Assembly (NCBI GenBank): GCA_019309045.1
Contig: JAFDGZ010000025.1
Location: 1 to 35,510, forward strand
DNA from: Deltaproteobacteria bacterium
GTDB lineage: Bacteria > Desulfobacterota > Syntrophobacteria > BM002
Direction of reading: 5' to 3'
DNA length: 35,510 nucleotides
Shown: positions 9,677 to 23,545 of the stretch, piece by piece
How the letters are laid out: every line of letters starts with the position of its first letter
Numbering within the stretch: the first letter of the stretch is position 1
Notes under the pieces: generated by a model
The model's database searches: none
Told to the model about the DNA's origin: nothing
The model's input: the letters and a program-made list of their open reading frames with translations, nothing else
Translations under genes and position numbers: made by a program

Positions 9677-11716
9677 ATGTCCAGCCGCCTTCGCAAAACG
9701 CGAAACATCGGCATCATAGCTCACATCGATGCCGGCAAGACCACAGTTACTGAAAGGATGCTCTATTACACGGGCAAGTCTCACAAGATGGGTGAGGTGC
9801 ATGACGGTGAAGCAGTCATGGACTGGATGGAACAGGAACAGGAACGCGGCATTACCATTACTTCAGCTGTTACTACCTGCTTCTGGCGCGAACACGAAAT
9901 TCACCTGATAGACACCCCTGGGCACGTAGACTTTACTATCGAGGTGGAGCGTTCTCTTCGAGTACTCGATGGGGCCATCGGCGTCTTTTGTGCTGTGGGT
10001 GGAGTGGAACCTCAGTCAGAGACCGTCTGGCATCAGGCTGACAGGTACAGAGTGCCCAAAATTGCCTTTATCAACAAAATGGACAGATTGGGAGCTGACT
10101 TCTTCGGCACGGTCCAGCAAATACGTGAAAAACTGGGAGCCAGACCACTGGTGTTGCATATACCGTTTGGTTCTGAAGCAAGTTTTGCCGGGGTGATTGA
10201 TCTTGTCCGCATGCAGGTAGTATCCTGGGACGAAGCTACCTTGGGGGTAGTCTACGAATACCACGAAATTCCACAGTCGCATCTGAAGGAGGCAGCTGAC
10301 AAAAGGGAAGAACTGCTTGAAAACATAGCAGAGTTCGATGACGAGCTCATGGAGAAGTACCTGGCAGATCAACCTGTTGAGGCAGAGGATTTGCTCCCTG
10401 CTATACGCCGGGCTACTTTGAATTTGGACGTGGTTCCAGTTCTCTGTGGCAGTGCACTCCGTAACAAGGGCATTCAACTACTGCTCGATGCGGTAGTCGA
10501 CTTCCTCCCAAGTCCCCTGGATGTGTCTGCTGTGGCAGGCCAACATCCCAAAGACGGCCGCCAGTTAACCCGGGGTAGCAGTGAAAAAGAGCCTTTTGCT
10601 GCTCTGGCTTTCAAGATCCACATGGATCAGGGTCGCAAACTCACCTATGTTCGAATTTACTCGGGTTCGGTTACTACAGGTACTGATGTCTACAACGTGA
10701 ACAAAGATGTCAAAGAGAGGGTGGCGAGAATTTTTCAAATGCACGCCAACAAGCGCGAACGTCGCAACAGGGCGGCTGCAGGAGAAATTGTTGGCATGGT
10801 TGGTCTCAAGGCAACTACCACTGGCGACACCCTTTGCGACCCGCAACATCCCATATTGCTGGAGCGCATCGAATTCTACGAACCGGTAATTTCGATTGCC
10901 ATGGAGCCTCGCACCCACGCAGATGAAGACCGCATACTCCAGGCCCTGAGCAAATTGGCGGAAGAGGATCCCACCTTTCGCTATCGCCAGGATGCCGATA
11001 CTGGGCAAACAATAATTTCTGGCATGGGGGAACTCCATCTGGATATCCTGGTTACTCGGCTTCTGCGAGAGTATTCACTGCAGGTAAATGTGGGCAAACC
11101 ACAGGTCGTCTACCGGGAAACCATTTGCAGGGAGGTGGAAGCTGTTGGCACCTTTGACAAGGAAATTGCCGGTGTTCGCCACTTTGCTCAGGTAGAACTC
11201 CATCTGCAGCCCAGGGAACGAGGCAGAGGCAACCTCTTTCGCGACCTGGTCCGAGACGGCTCCATACCAGTGGAGTTCATTGGCGCCGTTGAACAGGGTG
11301 TCATGGAATCAATGGAAAGCGGCGTACTGGCGGGTTACCCCATGGTGGATGTGGAAGCAGCTGTGATCGGCGGCACCTATAAAGAGCAGCTAGCCAGCGA
11401 ACTCGCCTTCAAAGTTGCCGCTTCCATTGCTTTTCAGGAGGGCTGCCGCAGAGCCCAACCCCAGCTGCTGGAGCCCATCATGGCAGTGGAGATTCTCTGT
11501 CCGGAAGAATTTACTGGCGAAGTGATCAACGATCTCAATATCCGCAAAGGCAAAATTGAGGGGGTCCTCAGCAAGCCCTCTGTAAAGATTGTCAGGGCCA
11601 CTGTGGCCTTATCCAAAATGTTTGGCTATTCCACAGCACTGCGCTCAGCCACCCAGGGGAGAGCAAGCTTTACCATGCAGTTCTCTCATTACGACAACAT
11701 TCTGGAAAAAAAATAA
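9677..11716 (+). CDS. fusA: Translation elongation factor G (stand-alone copy)
   Basis: Predicted 679 aa. GTPase motifs are intact: G1 AHIDAGKTT (15-23), switch [14 protein letters not shown]3 DTPGHVDF (79-86), G4 NKMD (132-135) and SAL (G5-like, in CGSALRNKG). Domains II-V follow, including the [12 protein letters not shown]-terminus close to the usual EF-G end. EF-G drives ribosomal translocation and, with RRF, recycling. The neighbours are not rpsL, rpsG or tuf, so this is probably a second EF-G copy outside the str operon. A specialised role (for example recycling only) is possible but cannot be read from sequence. The start has AGGAAAGCAGC just upstream. Confidence 0.95.
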
Positions 11717-14473: not shown

Positions 14474-14830
14474 TTAAAAGCTCAAAGTTTCCGATTCAGC
14501 CATAAGATCGACCAGGAAGGGCGCCCCTTCGATACGTACCCCCGGAAGCATCTCATCGGGGGATAAATACCTGTGATCCACTCAGGCCTTGCAGGCATAA
14601 ATGGGGGCATCGTGTTCAATGAGATAATCAATAAAGGGCTTCATCTCCTCGCCAGTGGACGCTCTCGCCCCTTCCGCCATCCCGAATTGGACCCAGTGGA
14701 TAGCATCGTCGACAAGAAAGACGCTGACGTCGTGCCCCTTTTCGCAGGCCACTTTGGCAAACTGAAAGGCGCGCGTCGCTCGGCCGGCCTTTTCGAAGCC
14801 ATTGGAAATAATAAAAACCATTTTTGACAC
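14474..14830 (-). CDS. DsrE-family sulfur carrier with active-site selenocysteine (TGA, residue 83)
   Basis: From GTG 14830 (GGAGG 8 bases upstream) the frame reads 82 codons to a TGA at 14584-14582, then 35 more codons to TAA at 14474. The post-TGA part (VDHRYLSPDEMLPGV...ETLSF) is normal DsrE family C-terminus. It aligns without gaps to the neighbouring DsrE at 15374-15742: C83-T-P-C86-IKERQIDEAD there, C80-K-A-U83-VDHRYLSPDE here. The TGA thus sits exactly on the cysteine that carries the persulfide in DsrE/TusD. A SECIS-like hairpin follows. DsrE-like selenoproteins have been reported from deltaproteobacteria and marine metagenomes, which supports the reading. A gene caller would stop at 14582 and lose the catalytic residue. 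It is the last gene of the Hdr-TusA-DsrE operon and probably accepts or passes sulfane sulfur. Confidence 0.85.
14532..14570 (-). promoter_or_regulatory. Bacterial SECIS-like element in the DsrE gene
   Basis: Counting from the UGA, bases 20-25 (CCCCCG) pair with 38-43 (CGGGGG) around a 12-base loop AUGAGAUGCUUC. U19 is bulged, and the stem continues with U17-A45 and A18-U44, then further pairs down to base 12. The apical loop begins 26 bases after the UGA, inside the range used by SelB. A bulged U just under a GC-rich upper stem is a feature of known bacterial SECIS elements. Confidence 0.7.
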
Positions 14831-14950: not shown

Positions 14951-15295
14951 CTAGGCTTTGATATAATGATATCCCTGGTCTTCGAGATCGAGAATTGCTC
15001 GGAGACCGTTCGGCACGCACTGGATGAATTCTGGCAGGTTTTCCGGTTTCAGGTTTAGAAAACGAAGCGAGTCTTCACATGCCAGGATGGAAAAGCCTTT
15101 CTGGCTCAACTCTTGTATCTCTTCCCGCAGCAAGCGGTCGCAGGCGATGCACACTCCGGCTGCAAAAATATCAGCAATTATAGTAATCTGCAGGCCGGCA
15201 TCTCCCTCCCTCTCTACCAGCCTAGCTGCCTGTTTGACGACCAGGCGCCACTTGTCCCTGTCAGATAAGTGGATAAGAATCTTCTGCCTTGCCAC
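14951..15295 (-). CDS. DsrE-family protein (second of three)
   Basis: Predicted 114 aa from GTG 15295, chosen because AAGGAG lies 5 bases upstream; a TTG at 15313 overlaps that site. The fold order QKILIHLSDRDKW...RLVVKQAARL...LQITIIADIFAAGVC...KGFSILACEDSLRFLNLKPENL matches DsrE/DsrF-like proteins. Cys73 (ILACEDS) occupies the usual active position. C49 and C52 (CIAC) and C93 are additional. The CIAC pair after the third strand is not part of the basic family pattern and could bind a metal or form a disulfide. Soluble, cytoplasmic, probably a persulfide carrier in this operon. Confidence 0.78.
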   Translation of the reverse strand: MARQKILIHLSDRDKWRLVVKQAARLVEREGDAGLQITIIADIFAAGVCIACDRLLREEIQELSQKGFSILACEDSLRFLNLKPENLPEFIQCVPNGLRAILDLEDQGYHYIKA

Positions 15296-15373
15296 ACCAT
15301 CTCCTTGAGGCAACTACATGCTATTGTCAGAAGGTACAAGCATTGCTTATCTCACATGACACTCTGATTTCAG

Positions 15374-15742
15374 CTAGTACACCAGCGTGGCGTTGGCAGT
15401 GAGAATTTCCTGGGTTAGAACGCCTGAGGCTGTTGGGACTGCGCCTTCAATAAGATCAGCCTCGTCAATTTGCCGCTCCTTGATGCAGGGGGTACAGACT
15501 AGAAGCCTGCCACCAGCCTCCCTGTAGCTATCCACCAGTTGTTTGAGCGGCGGCAAGCCAGCAGCAAAAACATGCTCCATGCAGTGGTTAGTAGCAAGTA
15601 ATACTCCCGTGCCCTGCAGCACCACTACGGCCTCCACGTCCATAACCTGGGCCGCATTTGCCAGGACGAACGGCAAAGTAGCCCTTTCCGGATCTTCTCC
15701 TGCATGAGTTACAATATAAATTATTTTTTCCTTCTCTGCCAT
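15374..15742 (-). CDS. DsrE-family protein (first of three)
   Basis: Predicted 122 aa; ATG 15742 has AAAGGAGG 7 bases upstream. It shows the DsrE fold: KIIYIVTHAGEDPERATLPFVLANAA, a VEAVVVLQGTGV strand, GLPPLKQLVDSYREAGGRLLVCTPCIKERQI. C83 and C86 form the CxxC of the family, with the second Cys being the sulfur-carrying residue by homology. The third DsrE in the operon has selenocysteine at the C86 position, so this paralogue is a useful internal reference. It follows HdrB by 85 bases. Role inferred: persulfide transfer between TusA and the Hdr-like complex. Confidence 0.86.
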   Translation of the reverse strand: MAEKEKIIYIVTHAGEDPERATLPFVLANAAQVMDVEAVVVLQGTGVLLATNHCMEHVFAAGLPPLKQLVDSYREAGGRLLVCTPCIKERQIDEADLIEGAVPTASGVLTQEILTANATLVY

Positions 15743-15827: not shown

Positions 15828-16757
15828 TTATGCGCACTTGGCAATCACTGTGGAGAGATCCTCTGCCTCCACTCCACCTTTCCTCAGATTTGCCATGCAA
15901 ATTGGACACATTGCCACTATCGGTGCCCCAGTACCTTTCAGCTCAGCAATTCTTCTGTCCCCAATTTCTTTAGACAGTTTTGGGGAAATGGACTCAGCTG
16001 GCCCACCGCAGCAATGAGTAAACTGCCCCGAGTTTCGCACCGCCACACATTCGATGCCAAGACTCGTCAGCAGCTTCACAGGAACCTCTGAAAGCTCCAG
16101 GTAGCGCCCATAGAAGCAAGGATCATGAAGTGTCACTCGCTCACCGTTGCCGTTATCTGCCTTGAAGTCCGCCAGCTCGAAATAAGTGTGCACCTCGAAG
16201 TTTTCCCCCACATACTTTGGATAGAGCACTTTCAAAGCATATGTGGTGTGAGGATCCACAGTTATCAACTTGCGCACTTTGTGGCGCTTCAAGGTGCTGG
16301 CCACAAATCTTGCGTGTTCTATAAAGCCGTCGATGTCTCCAAGGTCATAGAGCAAGATGCCGCTGTAGAAGTCGAGATCTGGCTGATAGTAGAAATCAAC
16401 TTCTGATTTTTCGAGAATCTTGACCACATTGAGCAGCATGCCGTTGAACTTTTTTTTCTCCTGCCTTGAGGCGAGAAAAGCAAAGCCCAGACCTACAAGA
16501 AACTTTGGCATATATTTCCCATAGCCCACGTAGTTTGCCAGGGCGGTATCCTCGTAGCGTTCAAGATAGGCCGTGGTCTTCTCTATGTAGGGAACCGATT
16601 GATACATGAGCCCAGTATAGAGCATGGCATCACCTGTTGTGGGCAGGGAGGCCTTCTTCCACCATCTATTTATGACAAAGTTTGGCGCCCCAAAGGGATT
16701 CCTGCTTTTTCGGACATTGTCGGCTATCAGTTCAATGATATCTCGTGGTCTATACAT
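15828..16757 (-). CDS. hdrB: Heterodisulfide reductase subunit B-like CCG-domain protein
   Basis: Predicted 309 aa from ATG 16757, which has GGAGGGGG upstream and overlaps the end of hdrC by 8 bases. One CCG cluster-binding domain is visible: C214 (HDPCFYGRY), C249-C250 (THCCGGPAES), and C284/C287 (MCPICMANL). The N-terminal half is related to HdrB/DsrK-type proteins (DAMLYTGLMYQSVPY) but lacks a second CCG motif, so it probably binds one non-cubane or [4Fe-4S] cluster rather than the two of methanogen HdrB. In this family the CCG cluster handles disulfide or persulfide-type substrates, consistent with the adjacent sulfur-carrier genes. Cytoplasmic; no membrane helix. Confidence 0.88.
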   Translation of the reverse strand: MYRPRDIIELIADNVRKSRNPFGAPNFVINRWWKKASLPTTGDAMLYTGLMYQSVPYIEKTTAYLERYEDTALANYVGYGKYMPKFLVGLGFAFLASRQEKKKFNGMLLNVVKILEKSEVDFYYQPDLDFYSGILLYDLGDIDGFIEHARFVASTLKRHKVRKLITVDPHTTYALKVLYPKYVGENFEVHTYFELADFKADNGNGERVTLHDPCFYGRYLELSEVPVKLLTSLGIECVAVRNSGQFTHCCGGPAESISPKLSKEIGDRRIAELKGTGAPIVAMCPICMANLRKGGVEAEDLSTVIAKCA

Positions 16758-17061
16758 GAGCTGTCCCCCTCCAGTTGGCAATGACAAACCGCCGCAATGC
16801 CAGGATAATTTCCCCCGGATCCGCCTCCCTCGGGCAAGTATGGCTGCACATGCCGCAGTGGAGACAGCGCCAGAGTTCATCAGCACTCTCGAGAATTCGC
16901 TCTCCAGCCCCTATTTGCGTGTAACGAATCATCTTTCTCGGAAAGTGTTCATAAATGAGTGGACATATAGCCGCACAGGTGCCGCAATTAAAGCATTCCA
17001 TGGCCGTGTCAACGCCGAAATGCTCCAACTTTTCAGCAAATTGAGGATCAACCACTGCCAT
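16750..17061 (-). CDS. hdrC: Heterodisulfide reductase subunit C-like ferredoxin
   Basis: Predicted 103 aa from ATG 17061, supported by AAGGAAGG 7 bases upstream; an upstream ATG at 17124 overlapping the preceding stop is possible but has a weak site. Two [4Fe-4S] motifs: C23-x2-C26-x2-C29-x3-C33P and C66-x2-C69-x2-C72-x3-C76P. This is the HdrC/QmoC-type two-cluster ferredoxin that passes electrons between HdrA and HdrB. The basic stretch between the clusters (EHFPRKMIRYTQIG) is family typical. There is no membrane domain, unlike QmoC, so the complex is predicted to be soluble. Confidence 0.92.
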   Translation of the reverse strand: MAVVDPQFAEKLEHFGVDTAMECFNCGTCAAICPLIYEHFPRKMIRYTQIGAGERILESADELWRCLHCGMCSHTCPREADPGEIILALRRFVIANWRGTAHV

Positions 17062-17120
17062 ATCTAAACCTTCCTTTCCTGAGGGGCTGTCATCTCTTCT
17101 GCCCGAGAAAGTCATATCTT

Positions 17121-17423
17121 TCATTCTGCTCTTGACAGCCCTGCTGCCAGCTGGTATCGGAAAAAGCTGCCGTCTTTTTCTCCTTCGACAACCTCACCGT
17201 ATTTTTTCAGAGCAGCCACAAACCAAAGCACCTCTGCTGGCTCCAGGCCTGTAGCCTCGGCCACCTCTGGTATTGTTCGTTCGCCGTTGTTCAGCTGCTC
17301 TTTGATGGCCTCAATCTTTTTCTTCTGTATTTTCATTCTGGCTGAAGCTGCTTTGATCATCTCCTTGCGCTCGGCCCTCAGCTGTTTCATCGCCTGTTTT
17401 TTGCTCTTGTCGTTGTTGTCCAT
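17121..17423 (-). CDS. Winged-helix-like small protein inside the hdr operon
   Basis: Predicted 100 aa from ATG 17423 (GAGGGACTC upstream); ATG 17438 is an alternative. The first ~45 residues are a highly charged Lys/Glu helix (KKQAMKQLRAERKEMIKAASARMK), followed by a helix-turn-helix-like stretch (RTIPEVAEATGLEPAEVLWFVAALKKYGEV) and a short wing (GSFFRYQLA). No known function is recognised. Similar small genes accompany hdr-like clusters in Desulfobacterota to my recollection. It could be a regulator or a subunit that docks between HdrA and HdrC. It sits 94 bases after hdrA and overlaps or abuts hdrC. Confidence 0.72.
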   Translation of the reverse strand: MDNNDKSKKQAMKQLRAERKEMIKAASARMKIQKKKIEAIKEQLNNGERTIPEVAEATGLEPAEVLWFVAALKKYGEVVEGEKDGSFFRYQLAAGLSRAE

Positions 17424-17517
17424 GGTAGAGTCCCTCATTTGAGCATCGCTCTAGAGCATCCACTCCTTGAATGCCCAGAGAACATCTTCGCTGAATTCTG
17501 ACGGAGTGCTTTTCCTT

Positions 17518-19443
17518 TCAGGCCGCAATGTCTGAGGCAACAATAGCATCCACCATGGCTTCGTACTGCTTCAGCGTCCAGCCTTTCACATTGATGGCAT
17601 TCTCTGGACATACTGCCACACAAGCGCCGCATCCCATGCACAGGGCCGGGTTCACTTCGGCACGCTGCACTTTTTCTCCTGCCACCTCTACTTGCACCAG
17701 GCGCAGAGCGCCGTCACGAAGGCAGGCATCCACACAAGCACCGCTGCCTGTACATTTATCCAGGTCTACTTCTGCCACAAAGGGATCCAGCTCCACGTAA
17801 CCACGGGCTAGCAATGAGGCAGCCTTCACAGCAGCACTGGAGGCAGCATTGCACGCCTCGCCTATGTCCATAGGCGACTGACAGGTTCCTGCCAGCAGAA
17901 TGCCTGCCACTGACAACTCAACTGGTCTGAGCTTTGGATGCACCTCTAGTAGGAACCGGTCTGCACCGACCGGCAGCTTCATCATATCTACCAGGCGAGA
18001 GACATCATTTGGCACCATGCCCACAGCAAGGACTACCAGATCCACAGGGACCTGCACCTCTTCGCCGAATGTCAGGGAATCATTCACCGTAACTTTGAGT
18101 GGATAGTCGCTGCTGCCGCTGTTGCTGGCTACCTGGGGTGGCTCTTCCACCTCATACCGCAAAAAAAGCACCCTGTTTTTAGCAGCCCGCTCATAGAGCT
18201 CCTCCTGGCCGCGACCGTAGGTACGAATATCCCTATAAAAATCGAATACTCTCGTGGCCGGATAGGTCTCCCGGATCAAGTTGGCAGCATGCAGTGTAGA
18301 GGCGCAACAGGTGCGCGAACAGTATTCGTGCAAATTGCCCTCTTCATCCTCCTGGTGGATTCCAGGAATTTGTCTGCTGCCCACGCAGTGAATCATGGCC
18401 ATGCTTCTGATCTGGCGGCCTTGCACCTGTAAAGCCTCACCCTCACCACCGTCCTCACTCATGGCCCGAATAAGTTCAGGCAAGGTGATGACCTCTGGGT
18501 ATTCACCGTAGCCAAATTCACCCCTTTTTGGAATGTAGGGCTTGAACCCGGTGGCGAGCACCACCACGCCAGTTTCCAATATGACCTCTCTGGCTCTCTC
18601 AGGAATTGCTGCAGGGCAGATTCCCACGAAGGGTATAAACTCACCGACTCCTGCACCAGCCTCCTGCATCATCGTCAACATTTCCTGTTCGCTGCCGCCT
18701 CGAGGTGGCTGTATATTAATGCGCAGTTTAAAATTGCCCACGTATCCTTCGAAATCTACCACCTCGGCACAGGTATAAATTTCAACGGCAGGATCTGCCA
18801 TCACCTGTTCCGTCAGTTCTTTGAGAAGGTCTGCGGCCCTTTCCCCGGTGGGGGCCACTCGGTCTAGCTGCGCCACTCGCCCACCTAGAAACGGCGTCTT
18901 TTCCACCAGAGTGACCGGAATGCCCCTCTGGGAGAGGTCACATGCCGCCCGCAGCCCTGCAATGCCGCCCCCGAGTACAATAGCATGCCTCTTGGCCTCA
19001 ACTTTGATGGGCTCGAGAGGTTCGAGCTGTTTTGCCTTGGCTGCCGCCGCCGCAACCAACCTGTTCGCCTTTTCAGTGGCTGCCTCGCCATGATGCACCC
19101 AACTGACTTGCTCCCGGATATTGGCGTGTTCATAGACATAGGGATTTGCCCCCGCCCTGGCAAGAGCGTTACGAAACGTCGCTTCATGGAGGCTGGGTGC
19201 ACAGGAGGCCACCACTACCCGGTCCACCCTGCCGCTTTTTATGTCCTCCATGATCATTTCCTGACCAGGATCAGAGCACATAAACATATTGCTTCGTGCT
19301 ACCACGACACCCGGAATCTTGCCAGCCTGCTCACAGACTCCTTCCACATCCACGTGATCTGAAATATTGCCGCCGCAGTAGCAGACGTACACACCCACTT
19401 TGCCTTCCGATTCCCTGTTCTTTTCTTTTTTCTTGTCCGTCAT
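17518..19443 (-). CDS. hdrA: HdrA-like flavoprotein, QmoB-related (641 aa)
   Basis: An N-terminal HdrA-type domain (VYVCYCGGNISDHVD, C21 and C23; C56, C81) precedes the FAD-binding Rossmann fold AIVLGGGIAGLRAA (GGGIAG 158-163) and ends GILLAGTCQSPMDIGEA. A cysteine-rich HEYCSRTCCASTLHAANLI carries the HdrA internal cluster cysteines. Two ferredoxin motifs close the protein: C602-C605-C608-C612 is complete, but the other reads C564-T-G-S567-G-A-C570-x3-C574, with Ser in place of the second Cys. Qmo/HdrA proteins channel electrons, sometimes by flavin bifurcation. The usual MvhD tail of QmoB is absent; MvhD is a separate gene here. GGAG lies 8 bases before ATG 19443. Confidence 0.9.
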   Translation of the reverse strand: MTDKKKEKNRESEGKVGVYVCYCGGNISDHVDVEGVCEQAGKIPGVVVARSNMFMCSDPGQEMIMEDIKSGRVDRVVVASCAPSLHEATFRNALARAGANPYVYEHANIREQVSWVHHGEAATEKANRLVAAAAAKAKQLEPLEPIKVEAKRHAIVLGGGIAGLRAACDLSQRGIPVTLVEKTPFLGGRVAQLDRVAPTGERAADLLKELTEQVMADPAVEIYTCAEVVDFEGYVGNFKLRINIQPPRGGSEQEMLTMMQEAGAGVGEFIPFVGICPAAIPERAREVILETGVVVLATGFKPYIPKRGEFGYGEYPEVITLPELIRAMSEDGGEGEALQVQGRQIRSMAMIHCVGSRQIPGIHQEDEEGNLHEYCSRTCCASTLHAANLIRETYPATRVFDFYRDIRTYGRGQEELYERAAKNRVLFLRYEVEEPPQVASNSGSSDYPLKVTVNDSLTFGEEVQVPVDLVVLAVGMVPNDVSRLVDMMKLPVGADRFLLEVHPKLRPVELSVAGILLAGTCQSPMDIGEACNAASSAAVKAASLLARGYVELDPFVAEVDLDKCTGSGACVDACLRDGALRLVQVEVAGEKVQRAEVNPALCMGCGACVAVCPENAINVKGWTLKQYEAMVDAIVASDIAA

Positions 19444-19482: not shown

Positions 19483-20790
19483 CTAGGCAACCGCTCTCCT
19501 TCTGGAGTTCAAGACTGTGAGGTATTCTGCCGCGCTCATGGCGGCTGCTCCCGCCTCGGCAATGGAGTCCACAATGTCTTTCGGGCCCGCAGCGGCTCCA
19601 GCAACGAAAATACCCTCTGTGTCGGTTAGAGTGGGTGCCAGTTTTGGTTTTACACTTCTTATGAAACCATCCGAGGCGGTGGACACCTCGCAATAGCCTG
19701 CAGGATTCCAATCGGGCACCATCCCTAGTGACAGCACCACCAGATCATGCTCGGCGCTGGTCACTCCGCCGTCAGCCTCCTGGGATTCATAATGAACTGT
19801 CACCGCACCGTTTTCCCCTTCAGTCAATCTGGCAACCTTGGCTTTGACAAACTGAATCCCCATAGCCTTGGCATTCTGGTAGAACTGTTCGTAGCCTTTG
19901 CCAAAGGCCCGGATGTCCATATAATAGATGGTCACATCTGCCAGGGGCAGGGCACCGGACAACAGCATGGCCTGCTTTATGGCGTACATGCAGCACACCC
20001 GCGAGCAGTAGGGAACCCCCATGCTCTTGTCCCTGGAGCCAGCACACTGAATGTAGGCGATGGAGTCTGGCTCCATGCCATCGGCCGGCCGGAGAACCCG
20101 GTTGTAAGGTCCGTGCGGTGCCAGAAGTCTTTCCATCTGCAAGGCAGTTATGACATTCGGAATCTTGCCCTCACCGTACTGCACCTTGTTCTCCAGAGGA
20201 GTGATGCCGATACCTGTTGCCAGAATAACTGTCTTGGCTTCGATGCTGAAATCTTTCGGTTGCTGCAAGTAGTCCACCGCTTTTGTAGGACAGACCTTTT
20301 CACACTTGCCGCACAGCATGCAGTTTTCAACGTCCAACACGGCCACCTGTGGAATTGCATTGGAAAAAGGAACAAAGATGGCCTTGCGTGCCGAAAATCC
20401 ACCCTGTTCAGGATCAGCCACGTACACTGGACACTCGTACTCACACTGCCGGCAGCCTATGCACTTGAGCTCGTCTACAAACCGCGGCTTCTGCTGTATG
20501 CTGGCGCTGAAGCCTCCCGCCAACTTCTGCAACCTCTTCATCTCACAATAGGTAAATATGGTTATGTTTTCATGGTGAGCAGCAGAGGCCATCTTGGGCG
20601 TGGTAATACAGCTCGCACAGTCAAGTGTTGGAAACACTTTCGACAGCCGGATCATTTTGCCGCCAATGGAGGCGTCTCGCTCTACAATGGCTACCTTGAA
20701 CTCCTGATCGGCCAAATCCAGTGCCGCCTGCAGACCGGCAATGCCGCCGCCGACAACCAGAGCGTCAAATGTCATCTTGTTTTCTGCCAT
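19483..20790 (-). CDS. hdrA: HdrA-like flavoprotein, QmoA-related (435 aa)
   Basis: Start ATG 20790 is supported by AAAGGAAAAGTCC; an extension to 20889 has no site. FAD/NAD Rossmann GGGIAG at 14-19 and GGKM at 43-46, then the QmoA/HdrA cluster motif FPTLDCASCITTPKM (C58, C61) and two [4Fe-4S] ferredoxin motifs: C110-C113-C116-C120 and C157-C160-C163-C167. The C-terminal half holds a second flavin-binding part with CAGSRD...YCSRVCCMYAIKQA and ends GIFVAGAAAGPKDIVDS. QmoA in sulfate reducers passes electrons between quinol and APS reductase. Here there are no aprAB or membrane QmoC genes, and the partners are sulfur carriers. Two HdrA-type proteins in one operon suggest a heteromeric flavin complex. 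Confidence 0.92.
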   Translation of the reverse strand: MAENKMTFDALVVGGGIAGLQAALDLADQEFKVAIVERDASIGGKMIRLSKVFPTLDCASCITTPKMASAAHHENITIFTYCEMKRLQKLAGGFSASIQQKPRFVDELKCIGCRQCEYECPVYVADPEQGGFSARKAIFVPFSNAIPQVAVLDVENCMLCGKCEKVCPTKAVDYLQQPKDFSIEAKTVILATGIGITPLENKVQYGEGKIPNVITALQMERLLAPHGPYNRVLRPADGMEPDSIAYIQCAGSRDKSMGVPYCSRVCCMYAIKQAMLLSGALPLADVTIYYMDIRAFGKGYEQFYQNAKAMGIQFVKAKVARLTEGENGAVTVHYESQEADGGVTSAEHDLVVLSLGMVPDWNPAGYCEVSTASDGFIRSVKPKLAPTLTDTEGIFVAGAAAGPKDIVDSIAEAGAAAMSAAEYLTVLNSRRRAVA

Positions 20791-20900
20791 GGACTTTTCC
20801 TTTCGACCCTCGGAAAGCGTTTCATTGCAAGCACATCTTGCTGGCATGAGAGGTATTCTCACAAGATAATGTCCTGCAATGCTCTCCATTCTTGGAATTG

Positions 20901-21320
20901 TCAGGCTGCTTTTTCTGTGCCGGGTGGGCCGAGTTCAGCAAGAACCTGATTCATGTTGTTAACTTCATTCACAAAGGCTCTCGTGCACACCGTGCAAATG
21001 GAGGTGAGTCGAAGTCTGCGGATGTCGAGCCCTTCCTGCTTCATCATCTGGTAGACCCTGTCCACCCGTTTTGCTAGGGCGTCATAGGCCCCCTCATAAG
21101 GACACTCTTCGCCACAGGACATGATGATGATGCCCCCTATTCCCTTCTTGAAGCAATCTAGGTAAAACTTTTCTGGGAAAAGCACGGGTGCATGCACCCT
21201 CAAGATATAAGTGTTGGTGGGGTAGCCCATGTGGGCCTGCCCCACCGCGTTGGCACCGGGATAGGCACAGCTCTCTGTCGCCAGGATAAGTATTTTCTGT
21301 TGATTTTCCGGAGCTGCCAT
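20901..21320 (-). CDS. MvhD/FlpD-like [2Fe-2S] electron-transfer subunit
   Basis: Predicted 139 aa from ATG 21320 (GGGAGGG 8 bases upstream). The MvhD/FlpD fold is seen: KILILATESCAYPGANAVGQAHMGYPTN, ILRVHAPVLF, a GIGGIIIMSCGEECPYEGAYDALAKRV segment and a C-terminal helix. C18, C69 and C73 fit cluster ligands of the family; C109 and C112 (CTVC) are extra. In methanogens MvhD links hydrogenase or formate dehydrogenase to HdrA; here no such enzyme is adjacent, so the donor is unknown. The usual NWCS signature is replaced by ESCAYPG. Confidence 0.88.
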   Translation of the reverse strand: MAAPENQQKILILATESCAYPGANAVGQAHMGYPTNTYILRVHAPVLFPEKFYLDCFKKGIGGIIIMSCGEECPYEGAYDALAKRVDRVYQMMKQEGLDIRRLRLTSICTVCTRAFVNEVNNMNQVLAELGPPGTEKAA

Positions 21321-21334
21321 CAGTTGCCCTCCCG

Positions 21335-21589
21335 CTATTTCTTGCGCACCACAAAGAGCCGCTCGTAGCCATCTGCTTCCAGATGCCCAAGATATTCGTG
21401 ACCCACTTTTTTGGCCCATACTGGAATGTCATTTTTGGTACCGGGGTCATTGGAAAGAATCTCCAGTACTTCGCCCACCTTCACCTTGCCAATTCCCTTT
21501 TTGGCTTCCAGCAAGGGTCCTGGGCAGGCACTGCCCCTGGCATCGACCACACTGGCCGCTTGAATGGTGCTCAAATCTACTGCTGTCAT
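21335..21589 (-). CDS. tusA: TusA/SirA-family sulfur carrier (CPGP type)
   Basis: Predicted 84 aa. ATG 21589 has AAGGAGGGAACA upstream and overlaps the preceding TGA (ATGA). VVDARGSACPGPLLEAKKGI carries the TusA active-site Cys22 in CPxP; the second half (GEVLEILSNDPGTKNDIPVWAKKVGHE) is the standard alpha/beta core. TusA proteins carry persulfide sulfur on this Cys and pass it to DsrE-type partners, of which three are encoded downstream. Fits as the ordinary carrier beside the unusual first TusA. Confidence 0.92.
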   Translation of the reverse strand: MTAVDLSTIQAASVVDARGSACPGPLLEAKKGIGKVKVGEVLEILSNDPGTKNDIPVWAKKVGHEYLGHLEADGYERLFVVRKK

Positions 21590-21900
21590 TGTTCCCTCCT
21601 TCTGGTTCTGTTTTTCGGAACACAACCCTGACAACCCAAGGTGTCATTGTGTTCTATTGTTCGACCCTTCCTAACATAAAGCCGTGAAAATCCTGACTCT
21701 TCCTCTACTTCAACTACCTGGTGGCCGCTCTGTCCAAGAACATTTGGCAGATCTACCATTGTTTTTTGATCTGTAATCAGTACCTCCAGAATTTGTCCAG
21801 GCTGCATCACATCGAGCTCGCTTTTCGCCTTTAAAATACACCAGGCACAACTCCAACCTCGAAGATCCAGCCTCCTATCCGCTCTCTGTTCACGCCGCAC
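21586..21900 (-). CDS. tusA: TusA-like sulfur carrier with variant active site (CAWC)
   Basis: Predicted 104 aa; start GTG 21900 with GAAGGAGA 6 bases upstream. It is the first gene of the operon, with a sigma54 promoter about 50 bases ahead. The TusA core is recognisable (RRLDLRGWSCAWCILKAKSEL...GQILEVLITDQKTMVDLPNVLGQSGHQVVEV). The catalytic CPxP is replaced by C18-A-W-C21, a CxxC. A C-terminal extension adds C90-QG-C93, which is not part of normal TusA. The two CxxC pairs suggest a dithiol or disulfide chemistry beyond simple persulfide carriage. The role is inferred. Confidence 0.84.
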   Translation of the reverse strand: MRREQRADRRLDLRGWSCAWCILKAKSELDVMQPGQILEVLITDQKTMVDLPNVLGQSGHQVVEVEEESGFSRLYVRKGRTIEHNDTLGCQGCVPKNRTRRREQ

Positions 21901-22098: not shown

Positions 22099-22159
22099 GT
22101 TCATACCCCCGCAAACAGTCCAGCCACGGGGTGATGTTTGCTCATGGAAGGTGCACCTT

Positions 22160-23545
22160 ATGCTCGAGATGGAATACAGTCGCTATTGGGAAACCGTAGT
22201 GGATACAATGATGGACGGCCTCATGGTCGTGGATCCAGAGGGCATGATCGTCTCGATTAACAGTGCTATGGAACAACTCACGGGCTACAGTAAGATGGAA
22301 CTGATCGGCCAGCCCTGTGCCGTTCTTGATTGCGATACCTGTTTCCACTCGAGGGCCCGCGGTGAAGATAAACATTGCGAACTATTCAAGGAAGGGCAGG
22401 TGAGGCGCTGTAAATGCATCCTCAAGAAAAAGGACGGCAAGCCCTTGCACGTGTTGAAAAATGCTGCAGTCTTGAGAGACAGCAGCGGCAAGATCATCGG
22501 TGGTGTAGAAACACTTACTGACCTTACTGCACTAGTAGCCAAGGAAAAAGTCATAACCAGGCTGCGGCGAGAACTGACCGGTAAAGACGGCTTCCAGGGC
22601 ATTCTGGGCAAGTCACCCGCCATGCAGCAGGTATTCGCTCTCATATCTAGTGCAGCCCAATCCGAGGCCCCGGTAGTAATCTATGGCGAGAGTGGAACCG
22701 GCAAGGAGCTGGTGGCCGGTGCAATTCATCGACTTGGCCCTCGCCGTAAAGGCCCCTTCATCAAAGTGAACTGCGCAGCACTCAACGAATCGCTCTTGGA
22801 AAGTGAACTGTTCGGCCATGTCAAGGGATCTTTTACAGGAGCCGATCGAACCAGGGTGGGACGCTTCGAGGCGGCTAATGGCGGAGACATTTTCCTGGAT
22901 GAAATCGGCGATCTTCCCCTGGCCACCCAGGTCAAGCTTCTCCGTGTACTTCAGGAAAAAGAGATCGAAAAAGTAGGAGACCATCGGCCGATCCCTGTAG
23001 ACGTCCGGGTACTGGCAGCTACCAACAAGAATTTACAAACACTTATGGAAACCGGCCAATTCAGAGATGACCTCTATTATCGTATCGGGGTGATTCCCAT
23101 CCACCTGCCTCCTTTGCGACAACGGCCCGAGGATATTCCCTTGCTTATTGAGACATTCACCAGCAGGATTCGTTTAAAAACCGGCAAAGCCATCGAGGGA
23201 ATTAACCATGAAGCTCTCGACCTGCTCATCCATTATGAGTGGCCTGGAAATGTGCGTGAACTTATCAATGTTCTCGAATACGCCTTTGTCATCTGCCCCG
23301 AAGGTGAAATACTGCCGGCGCATCTGCCTACACATATTACTGGTCAACCGCACCAGGCCAGCAGCCCGCACCGTTTGCGAGCAAGGCACCACGCTCCTGC
23401 CGAGAGGGCAAAACTGTTGGAAGCACTAAAACGAACCGGGGGAAACAAGTCGGAAGCCGCCCGTCTCCTCGGTATCAGCCGGGTGACTTTGTGGAAACGC
23501 CTCAAAATGTACAATATCCACGTTGACAGGGAAATCAGAGCATGA
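22160..23545 (+). CDS. Sigma54 activator with Cys-rich PAS domain (divergent regulator of the Hdr operon)
   Basis: Predicted 461 aa from ATG 22160 (GGAAGG 8 bases upstream; GTG 22151 and ATG 22169 are alternatives). An N-terminal PAS domain (VVDTMMDGLMVVDPEGMIVSIN...) contains six cysteines, C53, C58, C61, C73, C84, C86. There is no phospho-receiver domain. The AAA+ core has Walker A GESGTGKE (176-183), loop GSFTGA (223-228), Walker B GGDIFLDEIGDL and arginine-finger region. The C-terminus is a Fis-type HTH (SEAARLLGISRVTLWKRLK). The PAS cysteines suggest redox, Fe-S or sulfur sensing. It is almost certainly the activator of the sigma54 promoter at 21949-21963. Confidence 0.93.
   Translation: MLEMEYSRYWETVVDTMMDGLMVVDPEGMIVSINSAMEQLTGYSKMELIGQPCAVLDCDTCFHSRARGEDKHCELFKEGQVRRCKCILKKKDGKPLHVLKNAAVLRDSSGKIIGGVETLTDLTALVAKEKVITRLRRELTGKDGFQGILGKSPAMQQVFALISSAAQSEAPVVIYGESGTGKELVAGAIHRLGPRRKGPFIKVNCAALNESLLESELFGHVKGSFTGADRTRVGRFEAANGGDIFLDEIGDLPLATQVKLLRVLQEKEIEKVGDHRPIPVDVRVLAATNKNLQTLMETGQFRDDLYYRIGVIPIHLPPLRQRPEDIPLLIETFTSRIRLKTGKAIEGINHEALDLLIHYEWPGNVRELINVLEYAFVICPEGEILPAHLPTHITGQPHQASSPHRLRARHHAPAERAKLLEALKRTGGNKSEAARLLGISRVTLWKRLKMYNIHVDREIRA

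Follow-up and report, generated by a model that had tools for sequence, protein, structure and literature searches.

In the 35,510-nucleotide stretch of DNA analysed here (contig JAFDGZ010000025.1 of a Deltaproteobacteria bacterium of sulfate-reducing type; hereafter the window), a gene of the DsrE family is crossed by an in-frame TGA codon, raising the questions of whether this codon is read as selenocysteine (Sec) and, if so, which residue of the protein selenium replaces and what it might do there. DsrE-like selenoproteins as such have been known since 2005, and the earliest listings came from the Sargasso Sea and from Desulfovibrio vulgaris (PMC1088965, PMC1794560, PMC2398784, PMC13188914). 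The listings found in the literature all have the motif UxxC (PMC1088965, PMC2398784, PMC13188914), and such proteins do occur in the Desulfobacterota, as stated in an earlier note on this DNA. What is new at this locus is the position of Sec, which comes second in the motif (CxxU); a literature search for DsrE proteins with CxxU returned just the reviews and surveys of UxxC forms.

An in-frame TGA read as selenocysteine

The reading frame from the GTG at 14830, which is probably the translation start and has a GGAGG readable about nine bases before it (within aaaggaggtgaatact), contains one in-frame TGA (14584-14582, position 83) and continues for 35 more codons to a TAA at 14476-14474. The 118-residue product matches PF02635 (DsrE) over residues 3-115 (E 2e-19; 70.2 bits against a curated cut-off of 22.7), and since the match extends past the TGA, the earlier description of a single TGA followed by 35 family-consistent codons holds. 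The protein has no match among the NCBIfam models at E 0.001, and its relatives score 18-24 bits against the cut-off of 89 for the TusD equivalog, a level that is thus not reached. It is also easily missed, as ordinary gene callers would stop at residue 82; standard annotation would cut the gene at the TGA, as had been anticipated.

The TGA is conserved. A contig search identified seven close homologues (72-84% identity) in Desulfobacterota and in metagenome-assembled genomes labelled Deltaproteobacteria, including Desulfoferrobacter suflitae DRH4 (L003), and all seven share the TGA codon, in the context CKA-TGA-V[D/N]HRYL. A search of 395 whole genomes from the phylum yielded another distinct close copy with TGA (L033, in genome G371) and a more distant CKA-TGA member (L048, in G236), along with numerous Cys forms and additional TGA forms. 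The window's gene, the seven contig-search copies and L033 make up the nine distinct close CxxU homologues considered below; in these the column holds TGA, and in relatives it holds Cys. A class-wide search gave matches at E 1e-35 or better in 23 of 56 genomes, five of them with TGA.

Selection on the nine CxxU genes was compared on the two sides of the codon. Before the TGA pN/pS is 0.14 (pS 0.78), and in the last 20 codons, which follow the hairpin described below, it is 0.26 (pS 0.76); a low ratio combined with silent divergence equal to that upstream indicates that the part downstream of the TGA is translated. Over the first 15 codons past the TGA pS drops to 0.29, the kind of constraint on silent sites that a SECIS element would impose, and this points to a stretch that is constrained at the RNA level. 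Synonymous-codon identity in alignment columns 90-98 averages 0.84, a value reached in none of 20,000 random draws, as against 0.45 elsewhere; in the Cys forms silent codon identity at the same columns is 0.41, with no such constraint.

This stretch contains a SECIS-like hairpin that starts 19 bases past the TGA, with a 12-base loop between CCCCCG and CGGGGG, and that takes the form CCCCCG-AU-GAR-AUGN-UUC-CGGGGG across the CxxU genes. In layout (a stem, a bulge containing U, three base pairs and a loop of four bases) we take it to resemble the E. coli fdhF element; its apical loop differs from the classical GGU type, which we count against the explanation favoured below. The folding energy is not exceptional (MFE z -0.71), counts on the same side and was dropped as support, so the case for the hairpin rests on conservation: the earlier claim of a SECIS-like hairpin at the right distance is upheld by its presence and by the silent sites, not by its energy.

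The genome is equipped to decode such a codon, with SelA (621 bits), SelB (397 bits), SelD (371 bits) and a tRNA-Sec with anticodon TCA (tRNA-Sec(UCA)), completing the selA, selB, selC and selD set. SelA is present in all six further CxxU genomes tested; but 28 of the 29 genomes that carry Cys forms have it too, and it is therefore useless for discriminating between the two. The SelD gene itself (L028, G000:C39:27299-28225) has its own in-frame TGA, and its product probably contains Sec.

The alternative that there is no selenoprotein here, the TGA being a genuine stop or the result of pseudogene mutation or faulty sequencing, would agree with the 85-residue open reading frame of standard annotation that ends at the TGA. 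It is exceedingly improbable given the complete sel set, and we consider plain stop, pseudogene and sequencing error to be ruled out by the selection past the TGA and by its recurrence in nine distinct close homologues, which come from independent assemblies. We are accordingly close to certain that 14474-14830 encodes a real DsrE-family selenoprotein.

The motif position occupied by selenocysteine

The earlier note placed Sec on the sulfur-carrying cysteine. Profile alignments put Cys80 of the window protein opposite Cys78 of DsrE (2HY5_A, '..VCVAAAQRRG') and the carrier cysteine of TusD (2D1P_A), and the column of Sec83 is Ala in both. Cys78 is the residue proven to be persulfurated in DsrE (PMC3397948); as it aligns with Cys80, which is still a cysteine, and as Ala stands opposite Sec, replacement of the carrier is not supported, and Sec takes the place of a second, CxxC-specific cysteine. 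In these alignments Sec83 is the second position of the CxxC that YchN-like members have, the CKTC of E. coli YchN aligning residue by residue and ungapped with CKAU; in 3mc3 and 2pd2 the first cysteine of the motif alone is retained.

The original placement drew on the DsrE paralogue upstream, whose CTPC falls opposite CKA-TGA over 98 ungapped columns (20% identity, hhalign 94%). Both the ungapped match and the position of the TGA on a Cys stand, but that Cys is not supported as the sulfur carrier, and the match is remote, as pairwise BLASTP finds none and the relation is visible to a profile only.

An AlphaFold2 model of the window protein (mean pLDDT 97) predicts that a strand ends at Cys80 and that Sec83 lies in the opening turn of the helix that follows. 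The top structural matches of the model are YchN, 3mc3 and DsrE, with YchN (PDB 1JX7) the best in the PDB at TM 0.86, and DsrE and TusD at 0.77 and 0.76. YchN is thus the nearest solved fold, although it has Cys in place of Sec and its sequence identity is low; a literature search on YchN returned nothing, and to our knowledge its function is not established. DsrE of DsrEFH and TusD of TusBCD share the fold and the carrier cysteine, but have Ala in the Sec column and are subunits of a known heterohexamer; three adjacent DsrE-family genes are present in the window, to be compared with the three subunits of DsrEFH. The known UxxC selenoproteins have in common with it the PF02635 domain, a single Sec, the four-residue motif, a SECIS after the UGA and an occurrence in Desulfobacterota, but their Sec is at the first position, the equivalent of Cys78.

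Among 70 family sequences read there are 45 with CxxC, 15 with UxxC, 10 with CxxU and none with UxxU, numbers that are not frequencies, the sequences having been chosen partly for having a TGA. In a family tree, built from a short alignment and with many weakly supported forks, all nine close CxxU genes fall into a single supported group (97/94). L048 (match 1501-1848 in G236) falls within the sister CKAC group, so that CxxU requires at least two changes, either two gains or a gain and a loss. This gene has a different, stable SECIS-like hairpin after its TGA (CUCAUCG-GUCC-CGAUGAG), and has probably either acquired Sec on its own or retained an ancestral Sec that the group went on to lose. The UxxC forms, which are identical to the window protein at 33-46 of 118 residues, require at least three changes and lie on branches separate from CxxU. 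In different lineages, then, Sec can occupy either position of the DsrE-family CxxC. Two Cys forms with CTPC (L075 and L076) are nested inside the UxxC selenoprotein group, a likely Sec-to-Cys reversion, and the changes required for UxxC include such a reversion; the G371 genome has three paralogues, a CxxU (L033), a CKAC (L077) and a CTPC (L076).

The Cys80-Sec83 pair and its possible partners

The selenoprotein gene (DsrE-Sec) is the last in a co-directional run in which two TusA-like genes are followed by MvhD/FlpD, two HdrA-like genes, a gene for a 105-residue protein, HdrC, HdrB, the CTPC DsrE paralogue and a DsrH-like gene (Table 1).

Table 1. Coordinates of DsrE-Sec, its internal elements and the genes upstream of it in the window.
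Feature	Position	Strand	Basis or remark
DsrE-family selenoprotein gene	14474..14830	-	118 residues, GTG start, TAA stop, motif Cys80-Lys-Ala-Sec83
SECIS-like hairpin	14539..14562	-	CCCCCG stem, 2-nt AU bulge, GAG/UUC, AUGC loop, CGGGGG
TGA codon read as selenocysteine	14582..14584	-	TGA in 9/9 distinct close homologues; Cys codon in sister group
Cys80 codon (TGC), DsrE/TusD Cys78 equivalent	14591..14593	-	profile alignment to 2HY5_A and 2D1P_A
Small DsrE-family gene	14951..15313	-	partial PF02635 match, DsrH-like in size, directly upstream of DsrE-Sec
DsrE-family paralogue, CTPC motif	15374..15742	-	alignment to DsrE-Sec
HdrB-like, one CCG domain	15828..16886	-	family match
HdrC/QmoC-like ferredoxin subunit	16750..17124	-	family match
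105-residue protein	17121..17438	-	without family match; same place in L003, L004, L085, L089
HdrA-like flavoprotein, longer copy	17518..19443	-	family match
HdrA-like flavoprotein, shorter copy	19483..20889	-	family match
MvhD/FlpD-like subunit	20901..21419	-	PF02662 E 4e-20
TusA-like sulfur carrier	21335..21634	-	PF01206 E 1e-20
Second TusA-like protein, CAWC in place of CPxP	21586..21900	-	PF01206 E 1e-18

The placement of the Sec gene at the end of an Hdr/TusA operon, as noted earlier, is thus correct here, but it does not extend to a general link: among relatives, Hdr genes accompany the Sec forms L003 and L004 and the Cys forms L085 and L089. L004 retains much of the window's gene order, and in L003 the pair of DsrH-like and Sec genes is divergent from the Hdr genes; the small DsrH-like gene adjoins the Sec gene in L003, L004 and L009. 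No Hdr genes lie near the CxxU genes L005-L008 and L082, and strict Hdr operon linkage is rejected for that reason. The locus also resembles the YTD / DsrEFH type II cluster (PMC13293266), which combines TusA with several DsrE-family genes in organisms with reductive DsrAB, and the window's genome has dsrA. It differs in having Hdr genes and in the lack of the YedE/YeeE transporter, for which (PF04143) there is no match in the window's genome, and we have rejected the YTD cluster as the identity of the locus on this ground.

The explanation that we favour for the whole, with a probability of roughly 0.55, is that SECIS-guided Sec83 forms a redox-active thiol-selenol pair with Cys80 in which Sec is the resolving residue; its partners, direction and chemistry we infer. 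The cell's own SelA, SelB, SelC and SelD would decode the UGA as Sec, guided by the hairpin just past it. Cys80 would take sulfane sulfur from TusA or a neighbouring DsrE paralogue, and the Sec83 selenolate would attack the Cys80 persulfide, or a substrate disulfide, to give a Cys80-Sec83 selenenylsulfide with release of sulfide or a thiol; the same chemistry in reverse could load sulfur. The pair would be reduced again by the HdrB/HdrC/HdrA/MvhD complex here, or else by thioredoxin. The Hdr complex may be the partner in the window's genome, and a general reductant is the more likely one for stand-alone copies; Hdr need not be the partner, since its genes adjoin DsrE-Sec in few relatives only.

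The family pattern argues for an exchanging pair, since a conserved carrier Cys is accompanied by a second Cys or Sec, with Sec at either place and never at both; that the residue has switched at each of the two positions along the tree we count in the same direction. The CxxU position further suggests a pair engaged in redox chemistry, as opposed to a plain one-cysteine sulfur carrier. Counting against this is that one cysteine carries the sulfur in DsrE and TusD, so that the second motif residue is dispensable for carriage there. It is doubtful that Sec83 itself carries sulfur as Se-SH in place of the carrier cysteine: of the two residues Sec is the more reactive, and its column is Cys in the relatives and in the CTPC paralogue, but the proven carrier aligns with Cys80, DsrE and TusD have Ala opposite Sec, and the known UxxC forms have their Sec at the other position. 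Somewhat less probable again is a role for Sec83 without sulfur transfer, either in selenium trafficking or in the binding of a metal, selenide or some other ligand. The TusA-like partners do match YedF-type selenium-metabolism models weakly, and the gene stands alone in several genomes, but the strict alternation of CxxC, CxxU and UxxC fits a redox pair better, and the neighbours in the window's genome are DsrE, TusA and Hdr genes.

If Cys80 and Sec83 are such a pair, a further step, speculative and on balance unlikely as a whole, is that Sec as resolver makes the carrier a sulfur-releasing or sulfur-loading enzyme, in which sulfur would pass from TusA to Cys80 and leave as sulfide, and the flavin-based Hdr/MvhD proteins would exchange electrons with the selenenylsulfide. 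Were this true, sulfur trafficking would be coupled to Hdr electron transfer in a selenium-dependent way. The alternation itself argues that the second cysteine in the CxxC branch of the family takes a catalytic part in redox chemistry and is not incidental, which bears on how sulfate reducers release or load sulfane sulfur.

Three other genes of the region deserve mention. In four related operons the gene for the 105-residue protein lies between those for HdrA and HdrC; by the TusA end of the operon there is a divergent PAS/sigma-54 activator gene (22151-23545, plus strand), a candidate regulator; and downstream of the region lies a gene for an elongation factor G-like protein of 679 residues (9677-11716, plus strand).
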